Shown here: positions 1,481 through 53,362 of the stretch, one piece after another
How the letters are laid out: each line of letters starts with the position of its first letter
Numbering within the stretch: position 1 is the first letter of the stretch
Assembly: GCF_003086295.3 (NCBI RefSeq)
Contig: NC_092052.1
Location: forward strand, 71,216,910 to 71,280,909
Reading direction: 5' to 3'
Source: Arachis hypogaea
Lineage: Eukaryota > Streptophyta > Magnoliopsida > Fabales > Fabaceae
Length of the DNA: 64,000 nucleotides
The notes under the pieces: model-generated
What the model was told of the DNA's origin: nothing
The model's database searches: none
The model's input: only the letters and a program-made list of their open reading frames with translations
Translations under genes and position numbers: made by a program

Positions 1481-1531
1481 GGTGGGTTGTCTCCCACCTA
1501 GCACTTTGCTTTAACGTCCGTAAGTTGGACG
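1481..1531 (-). promoter_or_regulatory. Two-hairpin module downstream of T1 pol
   Basis: On the minus strand, hairpin 1 pairs CGTCC (1531-1527) with GGACG (1519-1515) around a 7-base loop. Hairpin 2 pairs GGTGGG (1498-1493) with CCCACC (1486-1481) around AGACAA. The spacer is 16 bases. It begins 11 bases after the pol stop. Homologous modules are at 20245-20292, 35698-35746, 49323-49370, 58115-58164 and 61694-61744, with compensatory changes in the stems. Function unknown; export, packaging or translation control of element RNA are guesses. Confidence 0.65.
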
Positions 1532-1541: not shown

Positions 1542-2951
1542 TCACTCTTCGGCTATGTGAGGATCTTCCAAGAAGAAGATCTCGAGCTCCTTGTTTTTCT
1601 GCATCCTCTCTCCATGGTACAGCTTTAAATGATGTCCATTAACTTTGATAAGTTCAGAGCTTGAAGGATGGCTTAGGTGATAAACTCCGTACTGTTCGGC
1701 CTTCTCTACTGTGTATGGACCATCCCATCTTGATCTCAACTTGCCTGGCATGAGTCTCAGTCGAGATTTGTAAAGGAGGAGTAAGTCCCCAGGTTGGAAC
1801 TCTTTTCTCTTAATGTGCTGATCATGTACAGCCTTTATCTTCTCCTTGTATAGTCTGGAGTTCTCATAAGCTTCTAGGCGAAGGCTTTCCAATTCTTGCA
1901 GTTGCAATTTCCTTTCAGCTCCGGCTTCCTCAATTCCCATGTTGCACTCCTTTACTGCCCAAAAGGCTTTGTGCTCGACTTCAACAGGGAGATGACAAGC
2001 TTTTCCATAGACTAAGCGAAAAGGACTCATCCCAATGGGTGTCTTGTATGCGGTTCTGTATGCCCAAAGTGCATCTTGTAGCCTGGTGCTCCAATCTCTT
2101 CAATGAGGTTTGACTATCTTCTGCAAGATACACTTTATCTCTCTGTTTGACACCTCGGCTTGCCCATTAGTCTGAGGATGGTATGCTGTTGCAACTTTAT
2201 GATTTATTCCATGCTTTTTCATTAATCCTGTTAGTCTCCTGTTACAAAAATGGGTGCCTTGATCGCTCACGATTGCTCGTGGTGATCCAAAGCGACAAAT
2301 AATGTGGTTTCTCACAAAGGAAATAACAGTGTTAGCATCATCAGTGCGGGTAGGAATTGCTTCCACCCATTTGGAAACATAATCTACAGCTAACAATATA
2401 TAAAAATAACCATTAGAATTTGGAAATGGACCCATGAAGTCAATGCCCCAAACGTCAAAAATTTCACAGAAAAGCATAATTTGTTGAGGCATCTCATCTT
2501 TCCTGGATATATTACCAAATTTTTGGCATGAGAAACAAGATCTACAAAATTCAGCAGCGTCTCTAAAAAGTGTAGGCCACCAGAATCCACAGTCTAAGAT
2601 TTTTCTAGCTGTTCTTTGAGGGCCAAAATGTCCTCCACTCTGAGATGAGTGACAGGCCTCTAAGATGGACTGGAATTCTGATTGAGGAACACACCGTCTG
2701 ATTACCTGGTCAGCGTCACATCTCCATAAATATGGGTCATCCCATATATAATATTTAGACTCGCTTTTCAGCTTGCCTCTTTGATGCTTAGAAAAGTTTG
2801 GAGGAAAAGTGTGGCTAACTAGATAATTAGCTACAGGTGCATACCAAGGGACTACCTCGGATACTGCTTGCAGGTTATCAAATGGGAAATTATCAGCTAT
2901 AGGAGTGGGGTCATCTGAAATGTGCTCAAGGCGACTCAAGTGGTCTGCCAC
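1542..2951 (-). pseudogene. T1 integrase (zinc-binding HHCC, DDE core, GPY-type C-terminal module)
   Basis: Integrase joins the cDNA to host DNA. In order the reading has the RNase H to integrase linker ([11 protein letters not shown]), a zinc-binding domain with HSSQSGGH and CRSCFSCQ, the catalytic core with [17 protein letters not shown] and GQAEVSNRE (the D, D and E residues all present), and a C-terminal module with [12 protein letters not shown] and [10 protein letters not shown]. The frame is interrupted by a TGA near 2100 and a shift before 2030. Close to full length for an Athila integrase. The stop at 1542 is followed by the two-hairpin module. Confidence 0.92.
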
Positions 2952-16107: not shown

Positions 16108-17228
16108 AGGAAAATTTGATTTCATTAGGACCTTTTGATCTTTTACCTTTTCTTTTAGTTCTTATTTTTAGGAGTTCTTCAGAATTTTAGATCTGAATTT
16201 GGATTTCTTTCTATTTATCAAGTTTCTGTAATTTTTCTTTTCTATTTTGATGTTAGAGCAATGATGAACTAAACCCAAATTTCATTAGGGGGAGGAGCTC
16301 TATTGTAATTCTAATAAATCAATGAAATTCTTCTTATTCTCAATTCAATTGTGTAGCTATTGGGAATCTTCTGTTTTGATTTTAAATTACTCACTCCAAA
16401 AGGGGTTTTAATTCAGTGAATGCTTGTGTGAGCCTCGAAAGGGGAATCACTTGCATTAGAGTTGGAGCTCTATCCTTCACAACTCTCTTGATCAACACCA
16501 TTCGGGAGGAATTGAGATCTTGAGAGATTTTGTGGCTTATAGATGAGAGATATGCACTTAACCTCTTCTCATGACAATTAGATCAAGGAATTGGCAAGAT
16601 TGATTGTGATTAGAGAGATTGGATTACCAAGAAATTGGGATCCAATCAATTTCAATCCGCCATAGATCTACTCAAATGATTGAGAAGGGAGTTGAGACTC
16701 AATTGATTCATGATGGATTACAGTATCTCCAATCCCTGATGAATCACTTTCTTTGATTTCATTAATTCAGATCTCTTAAATTTCTTTAATTCTACAGTTG
16801 CTTACTGTTGTTTTGATCACCTGCACCCAAATCCCTTTATTATTCATGCAATTTAAGTTTCCTGGCAATTTAGATTCTGCAATATAAATTTCTTGCACTT
16901 TAAGATTCAGTTATTTACCTTTCTTGCAATTTAAGTTTCAGCTCTTTTAATTTCTTGCACTTTAAGTTTCAGCCATTTAAGCTTCCTACAATTTACTTTT
17001 CTGTCAATCTATATTTTGCACTCTAGCTTTCGTGTAATTTACTTTCTGTTAATCAAATTTCACTCCATTAATCAATATTAGCTTAACTAAATTCATCACC
17101 ATACTAAAATTGCTTAATCCATCAATCCCTGTGGGATCAACCTCACTTTTGTGAGTTTTACTACTTGATGCAACCCGGTACACTTGCCGGTAAGTTTGTT
17201 TGGAATCGATTTTCCCTCATCAAGTTTT

Positions 17229-17246
17229 TGGCGCCGTTGCCGGGGA
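17229..17246 (+). other. T6 primer binding site, tRNA-Asp type
   Basis: TGGCGCCGTTGCCGGGGA, a perfect complement to the plant tRNA-Asp 3' end as I know it, 6 bases after the LTR. Confidence 0.92.
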
Positions 17247-17413
17247 TTGATTTAGATTGACAATGATTAAGTAAGTGATAATCTAGATAAAGCATTTTTT
17301 CCTTTGTTTTTGCTAGGCATATTAACTGTTTGTGATTTTATTTCAGCTAACTTTAACTTTACTCTGGCAATAGAGTGTTCTGTCTTTGTTTTCCTTGGGT
17401 TTGTTTGTGTTGT

Positions 17414-19058
17414 ATGCTAGGAGGGAGAAGAGGTGCATCCACCTCTTTTGATTCTGAGCCAGAGAGAAGATTCTTGAGGTTGAGAAGAGAAGCAAGAGGG
17501 AAGGGAGTGATTGGAGAAGAAGAATCAGAAGGGGAAGATCAAGAGATGGAAGGTAACTTCCTTAATCCACCAGAAGAGGTGGCCAACAACAATGGCCAAC
17601 CTCCAAGGAGAGTTCTAGCATCACACACCTTCCCCAACCCAAAAAACTGTGGGAGCAGTATACTCACTCCTAATGTTCATGTAAATAACTTTGAGTTGAA
17701 GCCTCAACTTATCACTTTGGTACAAAACAATTGTTCCTATGGAGGAGGCCCCCTTGAAGATCCGAATCAACACTTATCTGTCTTCTTGAGGATATGTGAA
17801 ACTGTTAAGACAAATGGTGTGCATTTAGATATCTACAATTTGCTGCTATTTTCATTTTCTTTGAGGGATAAGGCATCTCAATGGCCAGAGACATTTCCCA
17901 AAGAAAGCATCAACACTTGGGATGATTTAGTGAACAAATTCCTAGCTAAGTTCTACCCACCTCAGAGGATCATAAGATTGAAGACGGAAGTGCAAACATT
18001 CACTCAAATAGATGGAGAATCACTTTACGAGGCATGGGAGAGATACAAAGCTCTGATTAGGAAATGTCCACCTAAGATGTTTAGTGAATAGGACAGACTT
18101 CAGAATTTCTATGAGGGGTTGACTCTAAAAGCTCAAGAGTCCCTGGATTACTCTGCAGGAGGTTCATTACAACTAATGAAAATAGCTGAAGAAGCCCAGA
18201 ATCTCATAGACACTGTGACCAACAACCAATACTTGTATGCTCATCAAAGGCAACGCCAACTAGCTCCAAAGAAAAGTGTATTAGAGCTTGAAGGTGTAGA
18301 CACTATTTTGGCACAAAACAAAATGATGCACCAACAAATCCATCAACAAATGGAGATATGGCAAAGAGGAAAGATGGTCTTCAACTAGCTGCAGTGAGCA
18401 CTACAAACCAACCACCAGCTGGGTGGGGACAACAAGAAGAGAATTATGAAGAGTAGCAGCCAGAACAAGTTCACTATATGCACAACCAAGGTGCTGGACA
18501 GAATGAATCTCATGGAGACACTTACAACCCCTCTTGGAGGAACCACCCCAATTTAAGGTGGGGAGACAACCAAAATTCATGGCAAAGAAATTCCAACTCA
18601 AGCAACCCTCGCAACATAAACCACGAAAACCATCAAACCACTAACCAAAACCTATATAGAAAACCACAAAATAATCACCCCTATCCAATTTCTATCCACC
18701 CAATAATCCATCAACTAACCAAAATAACTTTCAACCACCATCTACATCCCACATTTAGCAACAACCACCCTAAGAATCCCAATGAATCTCCAACTTAGAG
18801 ATGATGATGGAGAAAATGATAAAGCATCAAGAATTGGCCAACAAGAATCATGAGACTTCAATAAGGAATTTAGAAAGACAAATTGGACAATTTTCCAAAC
18901 AGACAACAGAGAGACCAAAAAATGTTTTCCCAAGTGATACCATTTCAAATCCCAAAGAAGAATAAAAAGCAATTAAACTCAGAAGTGGAAGGACACTGGA
19001 AAATGATGAGGGTGACAGTGAAGTGGCAGCTGAAGAGAAGGACTAGGAGAAACTCAAG
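17414..19058 (+). pseudogene. T6 gag
   Basis: The start at 17414 (MLGGRRGASTSF) is chosen because it begins the region that looks like gag; an upstream in-frame ATG at 17375 adds a hydrophobic stretch that is probably leader. The core matches T4 gag closely (FELKPQLITLVQNNCSY, DKASQWPETFP, SLYEAWERYKALIRKCPP). A TAG at 18089 lies in frame inside the core, and a small deletion near 18360 shifts the frame before the Asn/Gln-rich tail (YNPSWRNHPN). No zinc knuckle is seen. Confidence 0.88.
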
Positions 19059-20020
19059 ATGAAGGAGGAAGAGCCACGAGGTCCAAGGAAGGGAAAACAA
19101 GTCATGGAAGAGCATCCACAAGAACAGAGGAAGGAGGTGAAGCCTTACATTCCTCCTCTGCCATACCCTCAAAGGTTGCAAAGAGATCTCAAGGACCAAC
19201 AATTTCCCAAGTTTCTAGAGGTTTTCAAGAAACTGGAAATCAACTTACCACTAGCTGAAGCATTGGAGCAGATGCCCTTATATGCAAAATTCCTCAAAGA
19301 ACTCATTAATAAGAAGAGAAGTTGGAATGAAAAGGAGATCGTGATCTTGACCCAAGAATGCAGTGCAGTGATTCAAAAAGGTCTCCCACCAAAACTCAAT
19401 GACCCTAGGAGCTTCTTCTTGCCTTGCACCTTTGGCCTCTGTCTATGATGAGAAGGTTGTCTATAGAAGAAGTAAAGCCTACACGAATGTCCTTGCAACT
19501 TGCTGATAGATCAATGGTGATCCCCAATGGAGTGTTTGAGAATTTCTTAGTCAATGTGGGTAAGTTCATATTTCCAGCGGAATTTGTGATCCTGGATCTA
19601 GCTGAAGAGGAAAGCGATTCTATCATATTAGGACGACCCTTCTTAGCCATAGCAAGAGCTATAATTGATGTGGAAAAAGGTAAAATGATCCTCAGATCAC
19701 ATGATGAGCAGATCACTCTAAATATTTTTAAGGAGATGCAACATCCTGCTGAAAAGAAAGTTTGTATGAGAATTGAGGAGGAAGATTTAAACTGGAAGGA
19801 AAAACCCAAGGAAGCACTCATCAACTCACCCTTGGAGAAGAAGATAGACACTGAAGAAAAACAAAAGGGTCATGAAGATAAGAAGGCTGAGAAGGGAGTG
19901 CAAAAAGAGGTTACAAGATTAATCATTAAGAAAAAAGCCCCTGACATAAAGCCTGCTGCCAAGAAAGAAAGGTCACCAAAGGAAGGAAAGAAGAGCAAGA
20001 AAAAGGTTCCAAACGGGTGA
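19059..20020 (+). pseudogene. T6 protease, active site deleted, with basic C-terminal extension
   Basis: The reading enters with PYPQRLQRDLKDQQFPKFL as in T4, but after the CT of the IISCT-like strand about 53 bases are missing compared with T4 (around 19431). The gap removes the DLGASIN active-site segment and shifts the frame; the second frame resumes at PLSMMRRLSIEEVKPTRMSL. Past the protease, a Lys/Glu-rich tail runs to a TGA at 20018, where T4 instead leads into RT. A TGA in place of CGA is possible. Confidence 0.82.
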
Positions 20021-20233
20021 AAAAACAGGAAAAACCCAACTGAGGAGTTCTCAGAAGGAGACAAAGTAAAACTAATCTACCAACAGTTGAAGGCATTTCC
20101 ACAAGCTGATGATTATTACACTATCAATAAGATACTCTCATTGGAGCATATAGAAATTGTTCATCAAAACACAGGAAAAAGGCTCACAGTAAGAGGGGAC
20201 AAGCTGAGGCACTATGATCATCAGCCACCCTAA
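20021..20233 (+). pseudogene. T6 reading like the integrase C-terminal module only
   Basis: In the same frame as the preceding ORF, after one TGA, a 70-codon reading has EFSEGDKVKLIYQQLK, then HIEIVHQNTGKRLTVRGDKL and RHY before the stop. It compares with the end of the T1 integrase ([15 protein letters not shown] and [10 protein letters not shown]). This fits an internal deletion joining the protease region to the tail of integrase. The similarity is short, so the call is moderate. Confidence 0.6.
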
Positions 20234-20244
20234 CAAAGAACCAA

Positions 20245-20292
20245 TGTCAAGCTAGTGACAATAAAAGAGTGCTTGTTGGGAGGCAACGCAAC
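20245..20292 (+). promoter_or_regulatory. Two-hairpin module in T6
   Basis: Hairpin 1 pairs TGTCA (20245-20249) with TGACA (20256-20260) around AGCTAG. Hairpin 2 pairs GTTGGG (20275-20280) with CGCAAC (20287-20292) around AGGCAA, with one G-G mismatch. The spacer is 14 bases. It begins 11 bases after the stop at 20233. Confidence 0.65.
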
Positions 20293-21960
20293 CAGAGGTA
20301 GCTTTATTTTCCTAGCTATTTCAATAAAAGAGTTAAGTAAGTTCATATGTATTGCAAGGAGCTAAGTTTGGTGTTACACACCAAAATAATTTAAAGGTGA
20401 ATGTAGGATGCTATGTTTGGTGTTCCACCAAAAATTTCACTAAAAACATGTTTCAACCCTCTGCATAAATGGTCACTGGCTCCAAACAATCAGGGAAACT
20501 ACTCAACCATTGTTTGCTTTCTAGTTTATAATTTGTTTTCTTTAATAAAAGCACAAGGTTTCATGTATGAGATTAATCTGATGCATAGCAGACAGTGGCA
20601 AAGAACTAAGTTTGGTGTTCACATACCAAAGTAAGTTCAAAAGCCTACAACCATTCATGCATGCTAACCATCTTTCAAGTGCTTGAGGAACAAGCAACTT
20701 CTAATAACTTTGCAGGAATTCAATCAATCTCTTGGAAGCACTATCCACCCTCACCCAAGGACACAAAGAAGGATGCAAAAGCTATGGAACATGAGGACAA
20801 AGAAATAAAAAATTAGAAGACATCACCAAGAGGTTGTATTGTTACTTAATTCCCTCTGATTTGAAGTGCTTTAAATTGGAAGTATAATTGTTTCCCTGCT
20901 GAGTGGTATTAATCTAGTTATAATTAAATTGAATTCTGTTATCTGTCTTTGAATTATCATTTTGGGCTGCTAGTTTAAAATGCCTAGATCATGCCACCCT
21001 ACTTGAATTCATGTCTTGTATTCCTCTGCATATATAAAAGAAAATGTTGAAACAGAAAGTGAAATTGTCCAATTTGATAAGAATGAGAATAAAGTTCAGT
21101 GGTGGTATATGCTAGATTGTTCAAAGTAAGCTCACTAATAAAGGATAAGGGTTGGAATATTCCTGTATAGTATAAACTAGGCTACTGTTTGTGAACTCTT
21201 AATGATAAAGATCCTTGGAAAAAGAAAGAGTAAGAAGGAAAGAAAGAAAAGCCAAGAATTGGCAACAAAAATGAAAGAAACAAATAATAAAGCTAGACAC
21301 CAATGGCAAGAAAGAGTAAGAAGGAAAGAAAGAAAAGCCAAGAATTGGCAACAAAAATGAAAGAAACAAATAATAAAGCTAGACACCAATGGCTTGGACC
21401 TTGAGACACATGCCTGTGGTGCTGTTGTATTAGGATCTTCTTGGATAATTAGGTTCTGAGGAGTATTTTAAAATTTGGTAACTTGGATTAACTAATCTGG
21501 GATTATCAACCGAAAATCCACTATCAAGAGCAACCTAATTACAAGGCAGTTAGTGACCCAAAGAGGTGCTGAGCATCAATGCTCTTGAGAATAATGAGCC
21601 AAGTGTCTATGGTGTGTATGTGTTGATTGAAAAACAAAGCTAAAAGGCTGCTGCAATACATAACACTTAGCTGCAAAGAAAAGTGTAAGCTTTCTAGCAG
21701 AAAAAAAACAAAAAAAAAAATAAATTCAAACATCAAGGATCAATAAATAAAGTTTCATAGTAGCATCTTGATTAGCACTTAAAGGAACATATAAATCTTG
21801 AAAACTAATAAAAGTAGAGCTTCAATTATAGTCTGCATGAAACCCCATGAACTTAGGCTGAATGCTTTCAAATAAGGATGAATATGCTTTTCTGTTTTCT
21901 TACAATTTTCTCATGTTCTACTGCTTGCTTGGGGACAAACAAGGTCTAAGTTTGGTGTTG
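20293..21960 (+). other. T6 3' internal untranslated region
   Basis: About 1.7 kb without convincing coding sequence. It contains a phrase AAGTTTGGTGTT repeated near 20365, 20413, 20609 and 21949 and a perfect 86-bp tandem duplication. It ends with GGGGACAAACAAGG and AAGTTTGGTGTTG directly before the 3' LTR, the likely region of second-strand priming. Confidence 0.6.
21222..21393. repeat. Perfect 86-bp tandem duplication
   Basis: The unit 21222-21307 is repeated without change at 21308-21393. It starts AAGAAAGAGTAAGAAGG and ends CACCAATGGC. Confidence 0.92.
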
Positions 21961-22800: not shown

Positions 22801-22887
22801 GAAGTTGCAACCAAGTACCTTTTCTAACCCACTTCATCAAAGGCCAAAAAGCCCACTCCAAGTACATGATAACTGAATTAGAAAGTG

Positions 22888-34030: not shown

Positions 34031-34291
34031 TCTCTGCTTCTTGTTACCTAAAATCAATCAAACAAAGTGCATCAAAGTCTTGCTCTAACTAATGAGATCA
34101 TGCATCATCCATTTTATCATTCAATTCATGCATAATTCTCATGAAATCATTCAAAATTCACAATGTTTTCTTGAATCATGGTATGAATGCATTTTCAACC
34201 AAATACTTTCTTATTTCCTAAGAAAATGCATGAAACCAACCTAAAGCATACAAAAATGGCTAGTAAAACTAGCCAAGATGCCCTGGCATCA

Positions 34292-35697
34292 CAACATCAA
34301 ACTTAAATCTTGCTTGTCCCCAAGCAAGAAAAGAACTATGCACAAAGAATTCTCTTAATTGGAATGTATTGAAGAATTGCTTATGATGCCTTAGTGGGTG
34401 AAGTGAATAAGTGACAATGGGGTCAACTCTAATTTGTATGCTTATGTAAGGATTCCAGTGCTCATTAGTCCTTACATTTTGGAAGTCTTAGATCTTAGGA
34501 CTTTCATTCAAATGATATTATGGAATCCTCTTTATAGATTGTCACCTTTGAAGCAGCACTTATTTTCTAGCATTTTTCTTTTCTTTTTGTATCTTGGCCT
34601 TGACTCTAGGTATCATGTCTCAAAGTGGCTTTTTAGGATAAGCTTTCAATCAATACTCCCAAACCAGTTGTTCTAAGGTATTAGGTGTTGAAGCACCCCT
34701 TAGGATATACTTGCTCAAGCCTCTCTCTTTGACACAAATCAACCACAAGCATTTAACTAGGACAATAACTCTTTGAGTTCTTGTTTCTTTCTTTTTCTTC
34801 CTAGTAATTGATGCTCAGAGCCTTGGGCTTGTTCTTTGTTTTTCTTTTTCTTTTGTTTTCTTTTGTTGCTGCTTCTTGGATCAATAGATGTTTGAGAAAT
34901 TCTATAATACTTCTCTAAATTTTAATTCCTGTCTATGAGCTCCCATGCAAGTTTTCTCAAACATGCAACCTCAATACACAATCATACAATCAGAACCTCC
35001 ACTCCTCTTAATCTTTTGCTTGCCCCAAGATTTATAAAATTCTTCAATATTTTCCTTTCAAAAGAATGATTTCCTTGTTGCATTCTTAGAGATATTGGGT
35101 GCAAGTAAAATTCAAGATGATAATCATGATATCATAGCAACATGTTACAAATCAAATATCAAATTATGCTTATTTACAAGGAGTAATCACACATGCATAA
35201 ATAGAAGACAATCATGCAATTTAAAGTGCTGGAAATAAGTAAGAGGAAAAAGGAACTTTACCACCTTGTAGTTCATCTTTATTGTTGTTGTCCTTTTCCT
35301 CCTATTCTTCTCCTTCCCACACCAAACATAGAATGATTGCTTATCCTCAAGAAACAAGTAAAACAGTGGTGATGGGATTTATGATGGATCATGAATGTCT
35401 TAGAATAAAGTGTGAGTATGCATGTGTTTCAGCAAGCAAGATTAAGGATCACAATAAAGGCACAAGAACTAAAAATAGCAACATTGTGATGGCATTAATA
35501 AATGGTGTTGGCATGGTACTTTGCATGAAAGTTAAGTGGCAACACCAAACTTAGTGTGACACTGTCATTTTAGAATGATGCAAATACCTAGTGAAGATTG
35601 AAAATCATTTTGTTGCATGGCAACACTAAACTTAGAATGCAATCATATGTCAAATTATTGAAAGTAAACTAAGCAAGGAAAGAAAATGTTACATACA
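34292..35697 (-). other. T7 3' untranslated region
   Basis: About 1.4 kb between the two-hairpin module and the 3' LTR. No coding support; plus-strand frames such as 35282-35554 are open by chance. Next to the LTR it carries the shared tail GGGGACAAGCAAG and AAGTTTGATGTTG (minus strand). Confidence 0.6.
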
Positions 35698-35746
35698 GTT
35701 GGGTTGCCTCCCAACAAGCACTCTTTTAATGTCATTAGCTTGACAT
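35698..35746 (-). promoter_or_regulatory. Two-hairpin module in T7
   Basis: On the minus strand hairpin 1 pairs ATGTCA (35746-35741) with TGACAT (35734-35729) around AGCTAA. Hairpin 2 pairs GTTGGG (35715-35710) with CCCAAC (35703-35698) around AGGCAA, a perfect 6-bp stem. The ORF stop codon TAA forms part of the hairpin 1 loop. Confidence 0.7.
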
Positions 35747-37126
35747 GTTGTTCATGAATTTCCTCCTCTTCTTCCAGTTTGTTAAGAGGAATGACCTTAA
35801 GAGGAAAGAGGAGCCAGTTAATGCCCCTTGTTTTGAGTGCCTCTCCCCAGTAAGTCTTCTTCTGTTGTTAGCTTGAGTAAACTTGCTTGTTGGAGTAGGG
35901 GTGGGATGGCTTTTGGTTGACCTTTTCTTCTTCATGGATATTGTCCTTCTTTTCTTGGTCACCATCCTCTTTTTAATGCTCATGTTGATTGCCTTCACCA
36001 CCTTGATTTTAGTACTTGGGTGTTGTATGATGGTTGGAGCATCCTTTTCATCAAGAGCTTCTTGAATTGGTGGTTCAATGAACTCACCTTTTGTGCAACT
36101 CTCTGTTTCATTGGAGTAGTGTGAAATCCCTTGATTGACTTCCTCCCTTTCTTCTACATGATGTTACATTGAGTCTTTTGGGAGTGAGTTTGCATGTTCC
36201 TTTGTCACCCCTAGTAACCTCTGTGGGTCTGGAGCCTTAGGCTTATATACTCTCACAACCTCCTCCTTCTTCATATGAATCTCACTTGGCATGGCTGCCT
36301 CTTTTTCTTGTTCTTCTGATTCCTCCCTTATTCTTGACCTTTGAATGAACTCCTTTGTTTCTGGAGAGAATGAAGTGGTCTCTCTTTGTGATCTCAGCTC
36401 TTCAATGAATTATTCTTCAGAATAGAGTTGTGCATTCTGTCTCAATTTTTCTTCATGGTCCCTTTTTGCTATTTTCTCCTTTTCGTTTGTCTTTATCATT
36501 CCTTCAAGGAGGAGTTCTATCCTAGCGAGTCTATCTTCTTCTCTACTTTTTTTGATTTCTTCAATGATGAGTTCCATCCTAGCAAGTCTATCTAAAGGCG
36601 GTTGGATAGGTTGTAATGGTTGGTCGGGGTTGGCTTGTAAATGGAATTGGTTGTTTTGTTGTTGTGTGTTCTGAAAGTGGTATGACTCTTGTGGGTAGTG
36701 GATTGAGTTTTGTGGATGGTGAAATGAATTGTATAGATTTGGGACAAAATTTTGTGCTGAGGTATACTCAAGTGATGAAGAATTTAGGCATGTAAAACTT
36801 GGAGGTGAGGTTGGATAATTGAGAGGTGATGGCTCTTGAAGAATGGGGTATGAATGAGTGAAATCGCTTTGATTTTGATCTTCCCAGCCACAACTTGAGT
36901 AGTGATCAATTTCACCAAAATATGGACCATTTTGTGGCTCTGAAAAGTACCCCATTTTATGTTCATGATACTCCCACCCACCATGAGCATAGCAAAGTGA
37001 ATCATTCTGTGGTGGTGGAGAGTTTCCTATGAAATTTGATTGACTAAAATATGATGGATGCTCTTTTTTTTCCTGCAAAAAGCTCTGTCTCAAACAATAA
37101 TCACCAAAAGAAATTAGAATCTCCAT
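35735..37126 (-). pseudogene. T7 Pro/Gln/Tyr-rich ORF of unknown function
   Basis: One frame of 464 codons runs from the ATG at 37126 to the TAA at 35735 with two in-frame stops (TAA near 36410, TAA near 36167). Residues 1-170 are rich in Pro, Gln, Asn, Tyr and Ser. Then a duplicated coiled-coil-like motif follows (RLARMELIIEEI and RLARIELLLEGM). The C-terminal third is basic (KKRMVTKKRRTISMKKKR). I recognise no retroviral gag core. Its place, next to the primer site, is that of gag. A distant comparison can be made with the T11 ORF, also Pro/Tyr-rich then coiled. Confidence 0.6.
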
Positions 37127-37271
37127 TGTAATAAATGAGGGATTCTTAGTGAGGCAATATCACAAACAGTTGGTTAGCAAAAGAAAATAAAGAAACAAAA
37201 GAAAACAAGGACAAAAGAAAAGTGCCTAATCTAGTAAATCAATCAACCGGTAGTTTGTTAATCACAATTAA

Positions 37272-37289
37272 TCCCCGGCAACGGTGCCA
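37272..37289 (-). other. T7 primer binding site, tRNA-Asp type
   Basis: On the minus strand TGGCACCGTTGCCGGGGA, one mismatch to tRNA-Asp, 6 bases from the 5' LTR. Confidence 0.92.
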
Positions 37290-38363
37290 TAAACTTGATG
37301 CACAGAAACTTGTCTCTCAACAAATTTTCCTTCGGCAAGTATACCGAATTATCGTCAAGTAATAACTCACAAAAGAGTGAGGTCGAATCCCACAGAGATT
37401 AACAGATTAAGCAATCAATAGTTGATTAATTATCCTAGTCAGAGGATCCAGATTTAAGTTATAAGTAGCATGAATTGTAAATTAACAGAAAAGAAAGGAA
37501 AAGCAATAAAGTGTAGAAAAGTAAAATGGCAAGAAAAGTAAATTATAAGAAATTAAAGTGCAAAAAATGTAAAGTGCAGGAAAGTAAATGACTATAAAGT
37601 AAATATAAGAACTAAAAATAAAATGTACATTGGGATAGAGAGATGTTGCATTCTCCAGATCAAGTCATTCTCATCTCTTCCTTAATCAATGCATTCATTG
37701 ATCTCATTGGCAATCTTAAGTGATTGGGTCTCAATCCCTTGGCAATACAATCTTTCTAAGCTTGAACAATTTCCCAATTCCTTGATTTAATTGCTCATGT
37801 GAAGAGATGAAGTATGGTCACTGATTATACCACACATATTCATAGATCAAATTATTGGTAGGATTAAATGTCACAATATCCATCCAACCCCCAACCTAAT
37901 CCAATGTGAGAAAGCATTTCTAGCATGATTTCCTCATTCCTCTTCCAAGGGTCAGAGGAAATCCAAGTATGAGCAATTTCTTTTCCGAGACAATTACCCA
38001 ATTAGATTAAGATCGAAAGCTTTCTAGTAAAATCAAGAGAAAAGAACGAAGAAGAAGAATAAAAACTACAATTGATCCATTAAATCACAATAGAGCTCTC
38101 TAACCCAATGAAAAGAGTTAGTTGTTCATTACTCTACCAAAATAGAAAAGAGAGAAAGTGCAGAAAAATAAAGATGAATATTAAAACTAAAATTGAGACT
38201 TCAACATTCATAATTGGAAAATTACAAACTATAAAATGAACTACTACTAACGAAAAAAAAAGAAAGAAAAGTGTGTGAGGGGAGGGAGTCCGAAGACCCC
38301 AATACAGAATCCCCCCTCCAATCCCCCTCTTTCTCGGATGAATTGAATGTTAAAACTAAGGCC

Positions 38364-44654: not shown

Positions 44655-46243
44655 TGGTACACGAAATCGTGATTGCACACTTTTCATGCAACTCCGTGCA
44701 GCTGACCAGCAAGTGCATTGGGTCATCCAAGTAATACCTTACGTGAGTAAGGGTTGATCCCTCAGACATTGTCAGCTTGAAGCAAGCTATGGTCATCCTA
44801 TTAAATCTCAGTCAGGCGGATTCAAATGGTTATGGGATTTTGATAATTAAAATATAATTAAAACAGAAAATAAGATAGAAATATTTATGTAATTCATTGG
44901 TAGGATTTTAGATAAGCGTATGGAGATGCTTATTGCTTCTGAACCTCTGCTTTCCTATTGCTTTCATCCAATCAGGCGTACTCCCTTCCATTGCAAGCTA
45001 TATGTTGGGGGATCACCGTTGTCAATGGCTACCGTCCGTCTTCTCAGTGAAAATAGTCCAAATGTGCTATCACCGCACGGCTAATCATCTGTCGGTTCTC
45101 ACTCATGTTGGAATAGGATCCATTGATCCTTTTGCGTCTGTCACTACGCCCAACACTCGCGAGTTTGAAGCTCGTCACAGTCATGCCATCCCAGATCCTA
45201 CTCGAAATACTATAGACAAGGTTTAGACTTTCCGGATCTCAAGAATGCTGCCAATTGATTCTAGCTTATACCACGAAGACTCCGATCTCGAGGCTAAGAG
45301 ATATGCATTCAAGCTCGTTTCAATGTAGAACGGAAGTGGTTGTCAGAGACGTGTTCATAGGTGAGAATGGTGATGAGTGTCACATAATCATCACATTCAT
45401 CATGTTCTTGTGTGCGAATGAATATCTTAGAACAAGAATAAGCTTGAATCGGATAGAAAAACAGTAGCAATTGCATTAATTCATGAAGAACAGCAGAGCT
45501 CCACACCTTAATCTATGGGGTGTAGAAACTCCACCGTTAAAAATACATAAGAACAAGGTTCAGGCATGGCCAAATGGCCAGCCCCCTAAACGTGATCAAG
45601 AGATCAAAAGTGATACAAAGATAGTCTCAAAAATGATCTGAATATGAAAATACAATAGTAAAAAGTCCTATTTATAATGAACTAGTAACCTAGGATTTAC
45701 AGAAATGAGTAAATGATGCAGAAATCAACTTCCGGTCCCACTTGGTGTGTGCTTGGGCTGACCATTGAAGCTTTCACATGTAAAGACTTTTCTTGGAGTT
45801 GAACACCAGCTCTGGTGTCAGTTTGGGTGTTTAACTCCAGCTTTTATGCCAGTTCTGGCGTTTAACGCCAGAATAGGGTAGAAAGTGGGCGTTTAAACGC
45901 CAATTTGCGTTATCAAAACTCAGGCAAAGTATGGACTATTGTATATTGCTGGAAAGCCCAGGATGTCCACCTTCCAACACAATTGAGTGCGCGCCAATTG
46001 GAATTCTGTAACTCGAGAAAATCCATTTCGAGTGCAGTAGGGTCAGAATCCAACAGCATCTGCAAAAACTCATTGTAAAGTCCAGAAAATACCTGAAATC
46101 ACAAAAAAACACACAAACTCATTGTAAAGTCCAGAAATGTAATTTTTATTTAAAAACTAATAAAAATAGATTAAAATCAACTAAAACGTACTAAAAACTA
46201 TGTAAAAATAGTGCTAAAAAGCATATAAATTATCCGCTCATCA
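44655..46243 (-). repeat. T9 3' LTR
   Basis: About 1589 bp, TGGTACACGAAATCG to CCGCTCATCA on the plus strand. TATA box TATAAATAG at 45676-45668 (minus), palindromes at 45830-45905. Confidence 0.92.
45668..45676 (-). promoter_or_regulatory. T9 3' LTR TATA box
   Basis: TATAAATAG on the minus strand; partner at 54377-54385. Confidence 0.7.
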
Positions 46244-47305
46244 CAATACCAAACTTAAATTGTTGCTTGTCCCGAAGCAACTAAAAAAAAGTAGGATAAA
46301 AAGAAGAGAATATACAATGAATTCCGAAAACATCTATGAAGATCAGTCTTAATTAGATGAGCGGGGCTATTAGCTTTTTGCTTCTGAACAGTTTTGGCAT
46401 CTCACTTTATCCTTTGAAGCTCAGAATGATTGGCATCTGTAGGAACTTAGAATTCAGATAGTGTTTTTGATTCTCCTAGTTCAGTATGTTGATTCTTGAA
46501 CACAGTTACTTTATGAGTCTTGGTCGTGACCCTAAGCATTTTGTTTTCCAGTATTACCACCGGATACATAAATGCCACAGACACAAAACTGGGTGAACCT
46601 TTTCAGATTGTGACTCAGCTTTGCTAGAGTCCCCAATTAGAGGTGTCCAGAGCTCTTAAGCACACTCTTTTTGTTTTGGACCACGACTTTAACCACTCAG
46701 TCTCAAGCTTTTCACTTGACACCTTCACGCCACAAGCACATGGTTAGGGACAGCTTGGTTTAGCCGTTTAGGCCAGGATTTTATTCCTTTAGGCCCTCCT
46801 ATCCATTAATGCTCAAAGCCTTGGATCCTTTTTTCTTTTACCCTTGCCTTTTGGTTTAAAGGGCTATTGGCTTTTTCTGCTTGCTTTTTTCTTTTTTTCT
46901 TTTATTATTATTTTTTTCCGCAAGCTTTTGTATTCACTGCTTTTTCTTGCTTCAAGAATCAATTTTATGATTTTTCAGATTATCAATAACATTTCTCCTG
47001 TTTCATTATTCTTTCAAGAGCCAACAATTTTAACATTCATAAACAACAAATTCAAAAATATGTACTGTTCAAGCATTCATTCAGAAAACAAAAAGTATTG
47101 CCACCACATCAAAATAATTAAAATATTTTAAAATTCGAAATTCATGTACTTCTTGTTCTTTTGTAATTAAAAACATTTTTCATTAAGGCATAAACACTAG
47201 ACACTACTGATCATGTTAATAAAGACACAAACATAGATAGAACATAAAGCATAATTTTCGAAAAATAGAAAAATAAGAGCAAGGAAATTAAAGAACGGGT
47301 CCACC
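46244..47305 (-). other. T9 3' untranslated region
   Basis: About 1.06 kb after the third ORF. No coding support. Next to the LTR it has the shared tail GGGACAAGCAAC and AAGTTTGGTATTG (minus strand). Confidence 0.6.
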
Positions 47306-48461
47306 TTAGTGATGGCGGCTAGTTCTTCCTCTTGAAGATCCAATGGAACGCTTGAGCTCCTCTATATCTCTTCCTTGCCTTTGTTGCTCCTCCCTCATGG
47401 CTCTTTGGTCTTCTCTAATTTCATGAAGGAGGATGGAATGCTCTTGGTGCTCCACCCTTAGTTGTCCCATGTTGGAACTTAATTCTCCTAGGGAGGTGTT
47501 AATTTGCTCCCAATAATTTTGTGGAGGGAGGTGCATCCCTTGAGGCATCTCAGGGATTTCATGATGAGAAATTTCCTCATGCTCTTGTTGAGGTCCATGA
47601 GTGGGCTCTCTTGCTTGCTCCATCCTTTTCTTAGTGATGGGCTTGTCCTCAGCAATGAGGATGTCTTCCTCTATGTCAATTCCAGCTGAATTGCAGAGGT
47701 GAGAAATAAGATGAGGGAAGGCTAACCTTGCCAAAGTAGAGGACTTGTCTGCCACCTTGTAGAGTTCTAGGGATATAACCTCATGAACTTCTACTTCCTC
47801 TCCATTCATGATGCTTTGGATCATGATAGCCTGGTCTATAGTAACTTCAGACCGGTTGCTAGTAGGAATGATTGAGCGTTGGATGAACTCCAACCATCCC
47901 TAGCCACTGGCTTGAGGTCAAGCCTTCTTAGTTAAACCGGCTTCCCTCTTGAATCTCTCTTCCATTGGATGCCTTCCACACAAATGTCCATAAGGACTTG
48001 GTCCAACCTTTGATCAAAGTTGACCCTTCTAGTGTAGGGGCGTGCATCTCCTTGCATCATTGGCAAGTTGAATGCCAACCTTACATTTTCTGGACTAAAA
48101 TCTAAGAATTTCCCCCGGACCATTGTGAGCCAATTCTTTGGGTCCGGGTTTATACTTTGATGATGGTTTTTGGTGATCCATGCATTAGCATAGAACTCTT
48201 GAACCATTAAGATCCCAACTTGTTGAATGGGGTTGTGAGAATTTCCCAACCTCTTCTTCGAATCTCATGTCGGATCTCCAGATATTTACTCTTTTTGAGC
48301 TTGAAAGGGACCTCAGGAATCACCTTCTTCTTGGCCACAACTTCATAGAAGTGGTCTTGATGGACCTTTGAGATGAATCTCTCCATCTTCCATGACTCGG
48401 AGATGGAAGCTTTTGCCTTCCCTTTCCTCTTTCTAGAGGTTTCTCCGGCCTTAGGTGCCAT
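47306..48461 (-). pseudogene. T9 third ORF (Transposase_32-like) with coiled-coil tail
   Basis: The ATG at 48461 opens a Lys-rich start (MAPKAGETSRKRKGKAKAS). The domain follows in three frames: VQEFYANAW and VRGKFLDFSPENVRLAF in 48249-47932, then LEFIQRSIIPTSNRSEVT and FPHLISHLCNSAGID in 47893-47306. Frameshifts near 48220 and 47900 break it. The last 80 residues look like a coiled coil (EHSILLHEIREDQRAMREEQ) ending in a basic RTSRHH. This fits the plant putative transposon protein domain, function unknown; despite the family name there is no evidence that it acts as a transposase. It lies in the envelope position. Confidence 0.75.
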
Positions 48462-48959
48462 AAGTGGTTATGAAAAAAAAAAGCAACGGTTTTACCACAC
48501 CAAACTTAGAAGGTTTACTCTTCCTCGAGCAAAACAAGAAAGAAAAAAGTAGAAGAAGAAGAAATAGAGGAGATAGAGGGGGTTTAGTGGTTTGGCCATG
48601 GGGGAGAAGTAGTGTTTATGATGTGTGAAAATGAAGGAGTAAAAATGGGTTTATATAGGAATGGAAAGAGAGAGGTTTGTGTATTAGGGATTGGGTTTGG
48701 GAGGGAAAGCATTTGAATTTAAATTGTGAGGTGGGTAGGGTTTTTGGGGAAGAGTGGGTGTAGGTGATTGGTGAAGAGATGATGGGGAAGAGAAATGGAG
48801 GTGATTGGTAAGGGGTATTTGGGGAAGGGTGTTATGGGAAGGTGTGATGAAGAGAGAGAGAGAGTTGAGGTAGGTGAGGATCTTGTGGGGTCCACAGATC
48901 CTGAGGTGTCAAGGATTTCTCATCCCTGCACCATTTTGGCTTGTAAACACCACTTGGAG
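48462..48959 (-). other. T9 region upstream of third ORF
   Basis: AT-rich and G-rich stretches; no convincing ORF and, unlike T1, T10 and T11, no clear splice acceptor directly before the ATG. Confidence 0.4.
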
Positions 48960-49180
48960 TGCCAATCCTAGCGTTAAACGCCAGGTTGCTACCCATTTTT
49001 GGCATTTAACGCCAGCTTTTCTTCTCTTTTTGGTGTTAAACGCCAGCTTTGTGCCCTTTTCTGGCGTTAAACGCCAATCTGGTGCCCTTTTCTGGCGTTT
49101 AAACGCCCAGAATGGTGCCAGATTGGGCGTTTAACGCCCATTTTGTTACCCTTACTGGCGTTTAAACACCAATAAGATCG
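48960..49180. repeat. T9 spacer palindrome cluster (GGCGTTTAAACGCC type)
   Basis: Seven units about 25-40 bases apart, centred near 48975, 49006, 49036, 49067, 49099, 49130 and 49161. Most read TGGCGTTWAACGCCAG with one or two changes. Confidence 0.9.
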
Positions 49181-49322
49181 TCCTCCAGGGTGTGCTATTT
49201 TTAATGCTGTTTTTCATTTTGTTTTTGCTTTTTCAGTTGTTTTTGTGACTTCATATGATCATCAACCTAAAGAAAACATAAGATAACAATAGAAAATAGA
49301 AATTTAACATAGATAAGTGAAG

Positions 49323-49370
49323 ATTGGATTTCCTCCCAACAAGCGCTTCTTTAATGTCAATAGCTTGACA
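49323..49370 (-). promoter_or_regulatory. Two-hairpin module in T9
   Basis: On the minus strand hairpin 1 pairs TGTCA (49370-49366) with TGACA (49359-49355) around AGCTAT. Hairpin 2 pairs GTTGGG (49340-49335) with TCCAAT (49328-49323) around AGGAAA: four standard and two G-U pairs. The module starts 18 bases after the ORF stop at 49389. Confidence 0.65.
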
Positions 49371-49388
49371 GTGGGCTCTCATGGAGCC

Positions 49389-50252
49389 TCACAGATACTC
49401 AGAGCATGATGATGGCCTCCTAAAACCAAACTTAGAGTTTGAATGTGGGGGCTCTGTTTGACTCTGCATTGAGAGAAGCCTGGCATGCTTCTTCTCCATG
49501 TGTGCATAAGGAGATCTTTGAGCCTTAAACACAAGGCAGGCCTCATTCACTTGAATGACTAGCTCTCCTCTGTCAACATCAATCACAGCTTTTGCTGTGG
49601 CTAGAAAAGGTTTGCCAAGGATGATGGATTAATCCATACTCTTCCCAGTGTCTAGGATTATGAAGTCAGCAGGGATGTAGAGGCCTTCAACCTTTACCAA
49701 GACATCCTCTACATGTCCATAAGCCTGTTTCCTTGAATTGTCTGCCATCTCTAGTGAGATTCTTGCAACTTTCACTTCAAGGATCCCTAGTTTCTTCATT
49801 ACAGAGAGGGACATGAGGTTTATACTTGACCCTAGGTCACACAAAGCCTTTTCAAAGGTCATGGTGCCTATGGTATAGGGTATGAAGAATTTTCTGGGCT
49901 CCGGTTTCTTCTGAGGTAATTTTTGCCTAACCAAGGTACTCAGTTCATTGATGAGCAATGGAGGTTCATCCTCCCAAGTCTCATTACCAAATAACTTGGG
50001 ATTCAGCTTCATCATTGCTCCAAGGTGCTTAGCAACTTGCTCTTCAGCAATATCTTCATCCTCTTCAGAGAAAGAATACTCATCAGAGCTCATGAATGAC
50101 AGAAGTAGGTTCAATGGAATCTCTATGGTCTCTGTGTGAGCCTCAGATTCCTCTGGTTCCTCATTAGGGAACTCCTTGGAGGCCAGTGGACGTCCATTGA
50201 GGTCTTCCTCAGTGGATACCACTACCTTTCCCTCCTCTACAGGTTCGGCCAT
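49389..50252 (-). pseudogene. T9 protease
   Basis: The active-site segment ALCDLGSSINLMSLSVMKK is intact. The N-terminal part is acidic. A stop near 49629 precedes IILGKPFLATAKAVIDV, after which a tail of about 60 residues ends at 49389 with no passage into RT. In T1 and T4 the equivalent point leads through a linker into the RT fingers. Confidence 0.88.
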
Positions 50253-50299
50253 GTGGGATGTGTTTATGGCCTTGCACTCTCTTTTTGGATTTTCTTCTG

Positions 50300-51690
50300 T
50301 ATTGCTTGGGAGAGTACTAGGAGGGAGTTATGTAACTTTCTTACTCAGCTGACCCACTTGTGCCTCCAAATTTCTAATGGGGGACCTTGTTTCAATCATG
50401 AAACTTAGTGAGGTTTTAGATAGATCAGAGACTATGGCTGCTAAGCAAGAGAGACTCTGCTCAGAATTCTCTGTCTGTTGCTGAGAAGATTATGGAAAAG
50501 GCTTGCTATTGTTAAACCTGTTTCGTCCACTATTATTATTATTGAAGCCTTGATTAGGCTTCTGTTGATCCTTCCATGAGAGGTTAGGATGATTCCTCCA
50601 TGAAGGATTGTAAGTGTTTCCATAGGAATCTCCTATGTAATTCACTTCTTCCATTCCAGGATTCTAAGGGTCATAAGCTTCTTCTTCAGCGGAAGCTTCC
50701 TTAGTACTGCCTGTTGCAGCTTGCATTCCAGACAGACTCTGAGAAATCATATTGACTTGCTGAGTCAATATTTTGTTCTGAGCCAATACGGAATTCAGAG
50801 TATCAATCTCAAGAACTCCTTTCTTCTGAGTTGTCCCATTATTCACAGGATTCCTTTCAGAAGTGTACATGAATTGGTTATTTGCAACCATTTCAATGAG
50901 TTCCTTGGCTTCTTCAGGCGTCTTCTTCAGATGAAGAGATCCACCAGCAGAATTGTCCAATGACATCTTGGATAGTTCAGATAGACCATTATAGAATATG
51001 CATATGATGCTCCATTCTGAAAGCATACCAGAAGGACACCTTCTAATCAATTGCTTGTATTTTTCCCAAGCTTCATAGAGGGATTTGCCTTCCTTTTGTC
51101 TGAAGGTTTGGACTTCCACTCTAAGCTTACTCAATTTTTGAGGTGGAAAGAACTTTGCCAAGAAGGCATTGACCAGCTTTTCCCAAGAGTTCAGGCTTTC
51201 TTTAGGTTGTGAGTCCAACCATGTCCTAGCTCTATCTCTTATAGCAAAAGGGAAGAGCATAAGTCTGTAGACCTCAGGGTCAACCCCATGGGTCTTAACA
51301 GTGTCACAGATTTACAAGAATTCAGCTAAAAACTGATGAGGATCTTCCAATGGAAGTCCATGATACTTGCAATTCTGCTGCATTAGAGAAACTAATTGAG
51401 GTTTAAGCTCAAAGTTGTTTGCTCCAATTGCAGGGATTGAGATGCTTCTTCCACAGAAGTCAGAAGAAGGTGCAATGAAGTCACCAAGCATCTTCCTTGC
51501 ATTGTTGGCATTGTTGTTATTTTCGGCTGCCATGTCTTCTTCTCTTTCGAAAATTTCTGTTAGGTCCTCTCCAGAGAGTTGTGCTTTAGCTTCTCTTAGC
51601 TTTCTCTTCAAGGTCCTTTCAGGTTCTGGATCAACTTCAACAAGAATTCCTTTGTCCTTGTTCCTGCTTATATGAAAGAGAAGAGAACAA
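50300..51690 (-). pseudogene. T9 gag
   Basis: The core is typical (FELKPQLVSLMQQNCKY, DRARTWLDSQPKESLNSWEKL, KSLYEAWEKYKQLIRRCP). A TAA at 51316 breaks the frame in the core and further stops lie near 50664, 50490 and 50335. The C-terminal part has YNPSWRNHPNLSW and an Asn-rich stretch; no zinc knuckle. The start is unclear: the frame is open upstream of the ATG at 51611 to about 51690. Confidence 0.85.
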
Positions 51691-53338
51691 GAAAGTATGG
51701 AATCCTCTATGTCATAGTATAGAAATTCCTTGAGGTGTCAGAGGAAAAGAAGAATAGAAGGATGAGGTAGAGAGGATAATTCGAACTTATAGAGAGGGAG
51801 AGAGTCTGAATTGCTAATAGAGGAGAAGTGTTAGTCCTTAAATAGAAGAGGGTGAGGAGGTGGGGAAATTTTCAAAAACAAAATTTAAAAAAATTTAAAT
51901 TAATTAAAAGAAATTTTGAAAAAGTGGTTGATGGTTTTCGAAAATTAAAAGTGAGAAAGTGGTTAAGTAATTTTGAAAAAGATTTTGAAATTAGCAATCA
52001 AAAATATATGATTGAAAATTATTTTGAAAAAGATGTGATTGAGAGGATATGATTGAAAAGATATGATTGAAAAACAATTTAAGAGGATTTGATTTTGAAA
52101 ATTAAAGTTGATTACTTGACTAACAAGAAACTAAAAGATATGATTTTAAAATTTAAGAATTGAACCTTTCTTAATAGGCAAGTAACAACTTGAGATTTTG
52201 AGTCAATCATATTGAATATTAGCATTAATTTTGAAAATATGAAATAAAAATAAGAAAAGGGTTTTGAAAATCATTTTGGAATTTTCGAAAATATTAAAAA
52301 GGAAATTAAAAAAGATGAGATTTGAAAAAGATATGATGTGAAAAAGATTTGATTTTGAAAAATTTTGAAGATTTGAAAAAGATTTGAATTGAAAACAAAA
52401 TCTCCCCTCCTGTGCCATCCTGGCGTTAAGCACCCATAATGGTATTTATTCTGGCGTTTAACGCCCAAAATACTACTCTTTTGGGTGTTTAATGCCCAAC
52501 CAGGTACCTTGGCTGGCGTTTAAACGCCAGTTTTCCTTCCTCACTGGTCGTTTTGAACGCCCAGCTTTTTCTTTGTAATTCCTCTGCTGTATGTTCTGAA
52601 TCTTCAATTCTCTGTCTTATTGACTTGAAAAGACATAATTTTGAAATTTTTTTTTTGAATTTTTAATAATGAGAAATAACAAAATGAAGCTAATCATGGA
52701 AGACTAAGATCAAATAAACAATGCATGCATGACACCAAACTTATAAATTTTTATATCAGAGACACTAACAAATTGAGAGTGCAATGAGAAACAACAAAAG
52801 ACACAAAACAAGAGAATTTAAATATCTGACCCAAGAAAATCATCAAGAACAACTTGAAGATCAATGAGGAACATAATGCATATATTTGAAAAATGCAGGA
52901 AAATTAAAAATATGCAAAACACCAAACTTAAAAAATGATACTAGACTCAAACACAAATTATTTTTTATTTTTATGATTTTATTAATTTTTTTATATTTTT
53001 TTCGAAAATTATTTGGAAAAAGAAAACAAGGAATTCAAAATTCTTAATGAGAATTCCAGGAATCATGCAATGTTAGTCCAAAACTTCAGTCTAAAGAGAT
53101 TAGACAGGGCTAAACAAGCTTCAGTAGGACATTACATACAATAGCCAAATTGATGGGAATCAACTGGCTTCTGTGATGATAAAAGTAGCATCTGAAACTC
53201 TAGAATTCGTTCTTAAAATCTCTGAAGAACAAAATTAAAAATTTTTTTGAATTTTTTGAAAATAAAAAGCTTAAAAATAAAATAAAATTACCTAATTTGA
53301 GCAACAAGATGAACCGTCAGTTGTCCAAACTCAAACAA
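51691..53338 (-). other. T9 leader between primer site and gag
   Basis: About 1.6 kb, very A/T-rich with many TTTTGAAAA-like phrases. No ORF of note. It includes a palindrome cluster at 52420-52566. A leader of this length is common in Athila elements. Confidence 0.6.
52420..52566. repeat. T9 leader palindrome cluster
   Basis: Five units of the GGCGTTTAAACGCC type near 52426, 52459, 52488, 52524 and 52553, the same family as the spacer and LTR clusters of T9. Confidence 0.85.
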
Positions 53339-53356
53339 TCCCCAGTAACGGCGCCA
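53339..53356 (-). other. T9 primer binding site, tRNA-Asp type
   Basis: On the minus strand TGGCGCCGTTACTGGGGA, two mismatches to tRNA-Asp, 6 bases from the 5' LTR. Confidence 0.88.
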
Positions 53357-53362
53357 AAAACT

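Follow-up and report, generated by a model that had tools for sequence, protein, structure and literature searches.

In the 64,000-nucleotide stretch of Arachis hypogaea DNA analysed here (the window), six LTR retrotransposons, T1, T6, T7, T9, T10 and T11, had been described as carrying a conserved two-hairpin RNA module after the main open reading frame (ORF), with compensatory base changes. The locus raises two questions: whether this module is an RNA structure kept by selection, and what it would do for its hosts, some of which have no recognisable pol.

Six two-hairpin modules in the window

All six modules were found at the places given in that preliminary description, each in the sense of its own element and about 50 nt long. 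Hairpin 1 has a GTC core, 4–5 bp and a loop of 6–7 nt; a spacer of 14 or 16 nt with TAAA and GYGCT follows, and then hairpin 2, with 6 bp and a six-base loop, mostly AGRCAA.

1481..1531, minus strand, T1 module: hairpin 1 at 1515–1531 (CGTCC/GGACG), 16-nt spacer, hairpin 2 at 1481–1498 (GGTGGG/CCCACC)
20245..20292, plus strand, T6 module: hairpin 1 at 20245–20260 (TGTCA/TGACA), 14-nt spacer, hairpin 2 at 20275–20292 (GTTGGG/CGCAAC)
35698..35745, minus strand, T7 module: hairpin 1 at 35730–35745, hairpin 2 at 35698–35715 (GTTGGG/CCCAAC); 20 relatives fetched
49323..49370, minus strand, T9 module: hairpin 1 at 49355–49370, hairpin 2 at 49323–49340 (GTTGGG/TCCAAT)
58115..58164, minus strand, T10 module: hairpin 1 at 58149–58164 (AGTCC/GGACT), hairpin 2 at 58115–58132 (GGTGGG/CCCGCC)
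61694..61744, plus strand, T11 module: hairpin 1 at 61694–61710 (AGTCC/GGACA), hairpin 2 at 61727–61744 (TGTGCG/CCCACC), decayed

A 24-nt core pattern with up to three mismatches matched five times in the window versus 0.00 in 100 shuffles, the T9 module being more divergent. Scanning the window with a hairpin-2 profile returned the same six modules and no seventh, and hairpin-1 profiles added two weak matches, both without hairpin 2. Two details needed amendment. The T7 module, first given as 35698–35746, is correctly placed, with its structured part ending at 35745; and of the spacer letters said to be kept, TAAA is present in all six window modules, but GTGCT is GCGCT in T9 and many relatives. 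Both GTGCT and GCGCT are frequent among modules of the 14-nt-spacer type that are otherwise equal.

Rfam 15 did not match the module, either across the whole window at the gathering score or in positions 1430–1580 (the T1 region) at E ≤ 1. Its sole match in the window lies elsewhere: the C/D snoRNA snoR71 at 6384–6491 on the plus strand (42.5 bits against a gathering score of 40, E 3e-5), which is the strand opposite the T1 gag ORF.

Host elements and their shared blocks

Judged from sequence alone, as in the preliminary description from which the label is taken, the hosts are putative Athila-lineage (Ty3/gypsy) LTR retrotransposons. LTR pairs were found for three of them.

17223..21959, plus strand, T6 internal region, between LTRs at 15101–17223 and 21959–24013 (89% identical): gag and protease-like ORFs, then the module, then ~1.7 kb to the 3' LTR
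34291..37295, minus strand, T7 internal region, between LTRs 95% identical: ORFs without Pfam match, then the module, then ~1.4 kb to the 3' LTR
46243..53363, minus strand, T9 internal region, between LTRs 90% identical: gag and protease-like ORFs, then the module, then ~3.1 kb to the 3' LTR

No second LTR was found inside the window for T1, T10 or T11. Primer-site-like TGGCGCC or TGGCACC was located by pattern in T1, T6, T7 and T11 and by eye in T9; tRNA-Asp is known as primer for related elements, according to the accessible text of PMC1142308. T1 has Pfam matches to Retrotrans_gag and to the integrase core and zinc domains, and reverse transcriptase pieces similar to an ORF with an RVT_1 match. 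None of the protease-like pieces passes the Pfam cut-off (the T9 Asp_protease match scores 18.8 against 26 bits), T6 and T9 show gag and protease-like ORFs with no reverse transcriptase or integrase match, and in T7 and T11 neither Pfam nor tblastn with T1 and T6 pieces recognised gag or pol. A strongly diverged gag could escape both methods. The module is thus kept in elements without recognisable pol.

Comparison of the elements at the nucleotide level (E ≤ 1e-3) isolates the module further. T6 and T7 share three blocks, namely the LTR end with the primer site, the module and the 3' LTR boundary. T7 and T9 share the same three and one internal copy of the boundary motif, and T6 and T9 additionally share gag and protease pieces. 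Besides the module, T1 and T11 have a repeat piece and a short stretch of LTR end in common. For T1/T10 and T10/T11 the module is the only common block, and T1 has no common block with T6, T7 or T9. When 35 modules were compared with ~880-nt flanks, they fell into five flank groups, one of 31 members and T6, T7, T9 and T10 each alone; across groups, alignments reach the module bin in up to 22% of the 260 ordered pairs, and no bin more than 140 nt downstream or more than 40 nt upstream exceeds 0.3%. T6 lies inside an outer element, with LTRs at 9400–11382 and 25419–27332, that has no module.

Several further features of these elements were recorded. Beside the 3' LTRs stands a hairpin-like stretch (CTTG..GGGA/AGGA..CAAG type) followed by a TTTAAGTTTGGTGTTG-like boundary motif; judged by eye, T7 has C-G and T9 has G-C as the outer pair of this stretch.

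21928–21960, hairpin-like stretch at the 3' LTR of T6
25401–25440, the same in the outer element
34290–34324, the same in T7
46240–46277, the same in T9

Second, internal copies of the boundary motif lie in T7 (35314–35361) and T9 (48492–48541), ~1.0 and 2.3 kb upstream of the 3' LTR. The 5' LTR of T11 seems to start at ~58168, at the 5' edge of T10 hairpin 1 (region 58164–59735), and T11 appears to have inserted beside the T10 module, separating it from its upstream part. A related piece is found inverted at 8680–9094.

Stem pairing in the window copies

The stems had been reported to change as pairs. Standard pairs occupy 62 of the 66 stem cells of the six modules; the preliminary description had passed over four broken cells: three in T11 (the outer A.A of hairpin 1, and T.C and C.C in hairpin 2) and one in T6 (G.G in hairpin 2). 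The T6 break is private, CGCAAC occurring only in T6 and its re-fetched self (locus L008); among 27 other fetched relatives the 3' end of hairpin 2 is CCCAAC in 26 and CACAAC in one. The outer A.A of T11, by contrast with this private break, is common to the fetched T11-type copies (12 A.A cells in 102 rows unselected on stems), and several T10-like copies also have a mismatch at this outer pair, so that four pairs can suffice for hairpin 1.

The G-U pairs noted in hairpin 2 of T9 also divide. The outer one is shared by its 20 fetched relatives; the second, in TCC, is found only in T9, L071 and one further row. We discarded the TCC pair as evidence, as it is private and matches the expected C-to-T decay.

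Between T1 and T7, three of the eleven pairs differ, each by a change in both partners; when six stem letters were substituted at random, all pairs were kept with three double changes in ~2 of 10,000 trials. Single-sequence folding gave mixed predicted support: out of 200 shuffles, those folding at least as well numbered 1 for T1, 6 for T11, 8 for T7, 9 for T10, 50 for T9 and 114 for T6. For 50 distinct sequences of the bare module, the lowest-energy fold formed hairpin 1 in 44 cases, hairpin 2 in 40 and the two together in 34. The window by itself offers few independent changes; the argument depends on copies from across the genome.

A structure model links the two module types

A covariance model was built only from T6, T7 and T9 and then scored on the other window modules. 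It returned T1 with 34.7 bits (E 6e-8), T10 with 23.7 bits (E 8e-5) and T11, weakly, with 11.9 bits (E 0.14). The same alignment without structure gave T1 17.2 bits, a gain from structure of 17.5 bits, and found neither T10 nor T11 at E ≤ 10. Since T1 shares no nucleotide block with T6, T7 and T9, the module is detected across the two types only through the structure model.

Copies across the genome

The window's own genome, in which copies were searched for, comprises 2.56 Gb in 440 contigs. Pattern 1, which fixes spacer and loop letters and leaves stem letters free, gave 2,765 + 2,696 = 5,461 sites versus 4 + 1 in the reversed control. Pattern 2, written for the 14-nt spacer with its 3-nt gap and excluding G as the first 5' stem letter, gave 5,455 + 5,496 = 10,951 versus 4 + 2. 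Modules of the 14-nt type escape pattern 1, and GTTGGG stems, as in T6 and T7, enter neither count. Neither the core patterns nor the T1 integrase query found a match in viral or prokaryote contigs, and a viral or bacterial source was set aside; seven loose-pattern viral matches look like chance (one match, E 3.9).

From among the pattern-2 matches listed, 40 copies, all on contig C1, were fetched to cover different 5' arms, the 3' arm being unseen at the time of choice. Pair 2 of hairpin 2 is standard in all 40 (U-A 26, A-U 11, C-G 3) and pair 1 in 34 (A-U 23, C-G 11), with A.C in three and U.U in three. Eleven of these copies are CATGGG, whose partner was already known from L086–L089; without them, pair 2 is standard in 29/29 and pair 1 in 23/29. 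The exceptions include three TTTGGG copies, with U.U at pair 1, and an ATCGGG copy, with C.A at pair 3. These copies add stem types beyond those of the window (ATTGGG/CCCAAT, CATGGG/CCCATG and ACTGGG/CCCAGT). The T9 relatives with GTTGGG/CCCAAT share flank letters, by eye, with many ATTGGG/CCCAAT copies, placing G-U beside A-U.

A different sample, 40 further copies out of 90 genome-wide matches, was picked for A or C as the 5' letter of hairpin 2 pair 2. Five are compensated (L086–L089 and L103, of which L086 and L087 are near neighbours of one family), 34 are uncompensated, and the truncated L113 pairs accidentally. The majority are T1-type modules with a single change, where the remaining copies carry G-C. 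Compensation at the level of single copies was accordingly rejected, the 34 of 40 being what decay after insertion predicts. A G-to-C change from GGTGGG to GCTGGG recurs in L091–L097 with different flanks and, except in one, an unchanged 3' arm, either by recurrent mutation or by conversion.

Covariation and the case for an RNA structure

The main set consists of 104 matches from one genome, giving 81 distinct modules. It leaves out L086–L125 (selected), most near-identical T7/T9 relatives, L008, four near-duplicate T1-type loci, L063 and L185, and it includes 39 copies (L146–L184) chosen by 5' arm. L063 was dropped because the pattern matched and the model did not, and row w-22623 as chance.

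In these modules 95.4% of 887 stem cells pair versus 82.8% with the 3' letters shuffled, and 105 cells are changed on both sides versus 33.9 (0/500 shuffles in each case); these changes are not independent events, because the alignment follows the model's structure and its rows are related sequences from a single genome. The covariation score is 0.352 versus 0.128 shuffled (0/500), and sliding the partner by 1–3 columns leaves no more than 0.073; these figures lean towards structure because the rows are related and the alignment was fitted to it. Covariation in a large alignment had been proposed as the test on which the structure should stand or fall, and the structure came through it in these 81 modules. 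Every Watson-Crick type occurs at pair 2 of hairpin 2 (U-A 47, G-C 22, A-U 8, C-G 3, with one G-U). Change is concentrated, most of it falling in four of the eleven pairs, and two further counts show no excess in the 81 modules: pairs with a double change number 4 versus a shuffled mean of 4.4 (reached by 500/500), and further pair types 17 versus 16.2 (186/500).

Smaller sets behave similarly. The six window rows have a covariation of 0.388 versus 0.173 (0/500), with double-change pairs and further pair types reached by 223 and 128 of 500 shuffles. A set of 61 distinct rows, which contains the probable chance match L016 833–880, shows 95.8% pairing and a covariation of 0.323 versus 0.128 (0/500), the two counts being reached by 41 and 21 of 500 shuffles. 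The 102 rows unselected on stems hold 1,122 cells, with 1,056 Watson-Crick, 33 G-U, 11 A-C and 22 other; 22 of the G-U cells are pair 1 of hairpin 2, nearly all in T9 and relatives. At the level of families, the stem changes are few but clear.

Could the conservation have a source other than RNA? The candidates are a DNA-binding palindrome, a coding remnant and shared ancestry alone; two inverted repeats are DNA palindromes too, and copies within families share ancestry. A binding site should, however, keep its letters, and one pair here takes four Watson-Crick types; G-U throughout the fetched T9 relatives, beside A-U and G-C types, fits RNA better. The family-wide G-U stem, together with the gain from the structure model, favours RNA over a DNA palindrome. 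Flanks between families have diverged beyond alignment. Coding conservation was rejected, as the 14- and 16-nt spacers give different downstream frames and reading frames differ between types. Explanations by palindrome, coding or ancestry alone are therefore very improbable, and the comparisons indicate that the module is almost certainly a selected RNA structure.

Position relative to the main stop codon

For 63 parsed loci with at least 300 nt upstream, the longest ORF of at least 60 codons in three frames was taken and its stop accepted from 60 nt before to 20 nt after the start of hairpin 1. This left 47 loci, in which T6 is counted twice (window and L008) and some are near-duplicates. 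The main stop lies 10–18 nt upstream of hairpin 1 in 44 of the 47 and at 47 and 54 nt in two; the stop codons are TGA in 28 and TAA in 19. In the window, a stop close to or overlapping the module had been claimed for four elements, and this was borne out: in three it lies upstream as given below, and in T7 the best upstream ORF has its stop inside hairpin 1 (−11).

1542..1544, minus strand, T1 TGA stop, ending the integrase-C-terminal ORF piece, 10 nt before hairpin 1
20231..20233, plus strand, T6 TAA stop, closing its last ORF and lying 11 nt ahead of hairpin 1
49389..49391, minus strand, T9 TGA stop, closing its last ORF piece and lying 18 nt ahead of hairpin 1

The last T6 ORF matches an integrase tail only at E 0.015, and T10 and T11 have no ORF of 60 codons ending near the module. 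Downstream, the composition changes, with 49% T in the 60 nt after the module versus 20% in the 60 nt before it (n = 83 modules with both). Structure, position and retention in elements without recognisable pol together make the module a cis-acting RNA element after the main stop codon.

Such a position could suggest that the hairpins act on the terminating ribosome, by readthrough, reinitiation or slow termination. The 10–18 nt spacing would suit this, the frame stays open for a while past the stop in T1 and T6, and T1-type copies often carry CCACCATGG immediately 3' of hairpin 2. Distances vary, however, and hairpin 1 of T7 contains the stop itself. Several copies have lost the ATG, which in T1 opens, by eye, a 2-codon frame, and no conserved downstream ORF was apparent. 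Stop-codon readthrough was rejected, as neither stop codon (TGA 28, TAA 19 of 47) nor spacing is fixed, and a translation signal in general seems improbable. As to the letters themselves, CCACCATGGTATGATC-like letters follow hairpin 2 at 1465–1480 (minus strand) and in T1-type loci; the stretch presents a good-context ATG overlapping a donor-like GGTATG, and the ATG is lost in some copies.

A signal for RNA processing, in which the hairpins would frame an AATAAA-like motif and a GTA donor-like site and steer polyadenylation or splicing of the 3' region, is also rather unlikely. It would account for TAAA in all six window copies, for the T-rich tract downstream and for the 115 of 143 modules in which a GTA follows hairpin 2 by no more than 12 nt. 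These 115 come, however, from a few families; GTA is missing in the T9 family, in L086, L087 and L089 and, by eye, in ATTGGG copies with T9-like flanks; and such motifs do not require stem covariation.

A third reading makes the module and the T-rich stretch a means of nuclear export, or of protection from nonsense-mediated decay, for unspliced RNA whose 3' UTR is very long. The stop just upstream (44/47), the ~1.4–3.1 kb that remain to the 3' LTR in T6, T7 and T9 and the shift from 20% to 49% T are consistent with it. Gene-poor copies would need such an element too. The stability element (RSE) of Rous sarcoma virus adjoins the gag stop on its downstream side, in the accessible text of PMC2925335. 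Against it, the minimal RSV element is 155 nt and polypyrimidine-rich, and a plant assay found that an unstructured region following the stop conferred resistance to decay, which a hairpin at that place abolished (accessible text of PMC6277124). A post-stop hairpin favoured decay in that assay, a result that argues against a simple shield from decay. By analogy, export or stability is a possible function, close behind packaging and nearly as likely.

By eye, the region 100–600 nt downstream of the T1, T9, T10 and T11 modules holds GC-rich short palindromes in loose tandem, of ACGCGACCGCGT-, GGCGTTTAACGCC- and TGTGCGTACGCACA-types that differ between elements.

A candidate signal for recognition of genomic RNA

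The function that we tentatively put first is recognition of the genomic RNA in trans. The module would mark unspliced genomic RNA, most likely for Gag or nucleocapsid during packaging, and RNAs of copies without pol would be taken into particles of autonomous relatives. Its site just beyond the terminating ribosome would let it stay folded during translation of the same RNA, and if it preceded a downstream ORF expressed by splicing, spliced RNAs would lack it. We infer packaging because gene-poor copies keep the module together with two reverse-transcription signals; T7 and T11, where Pfam and tblastn with T1 and T6 pieces recognised no gag or pol, are such copies. BARE2 makes no Gag and yet has kept its dimerization and packaging signals, as the accessible text of PMC3735527 reports.

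Some points count against packaging. T1 has no block in common with T6, T7 or T9, the two types being joined by the structure model only. The dimer site of Ty3 is at the 5' ends (PMC11381356, accessible text), and the stop distance of 10–18 nt fits a termination-linked role equally well. General loop-loop dimers were rejected, as the palindrome AGCT in loop 1 is confined to the 14-nt-spacer type. By eye, no pseudoknot between spacer and loops is kept across both types.

Extending the packaging reading, the module may be a third near-universal cis signal beside the primer site and the 3' LTR boundary, by which autonomous copies would recognise and carry the RNAs of dependent ones, although we put this forward with still more reserve than packaging itself. 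The primer binding site and 3' LTR boundary of the Athila lineage have long been known. Like the module, they are cis sequences common to otherwise unalignable elements, but they function as sequence and the module as structure.

Relation to known elements and significance

The MPMV CTE is an RNA transport element of the same kind as the IAP RTE and the MusD MTE; these are animal elements, larger, and are not known to share sequence or loop with the module. The likeness is that IAP RTE and MusD MTE are structured cis RNAs serving unspliced retroelement RNA (PMC12786077, accessible text, according to which export of plant LTR element RNA has so far had no direct study). The RSV RSE is comparable as a cis element directly past a retroelement stop and before a very long 3' UTR, a position the module shares at 10–18 nt in 44 of 47 loci; the accessible text of PMC2925335 mentions no compact two-hairpin motif, and the minimal RSE of 155 nt is polypyrimidine-rich and tied to PTBP1 (accessible text of PMC6277124). 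BARE signals resemble the module in being conserved in BARE2 without Gag, but BARE is Ty1/copia (PMC12786077), and no covarying two-hairpin structure after the stop is described in the accessible text of PMC3735527. A further comparison is Diaspora, a soybean Athila-lineage element in which a short stretch after pol yields a predicted transmembrane segment, as a T-rich stretch would; that report, in its accessible text, gives no hairpin for the region, and its authors' BLASTn and tBLASTx found nothing there (PMC1142308).

The structure had been presented as undescribed, and our search of the literature by title and abstract, with most subscription papers outside it, likewise returned no description of the module. 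Athila-type elements fill much of many plant genomes. For these, a compact module with family-level compensatory stems provides a covariance model with which degraded copies can be found and classified, and offers a defined RNA of 50 nt for testing export, decay and Gag binding. If it is a packaging signal, it would help to explain the spread of element RNAs without pol, and it would represent a structured signal for packaging and trans-mobilisation of plant Ty3/gypsy elements, with more than 16,000 sites in one genome.
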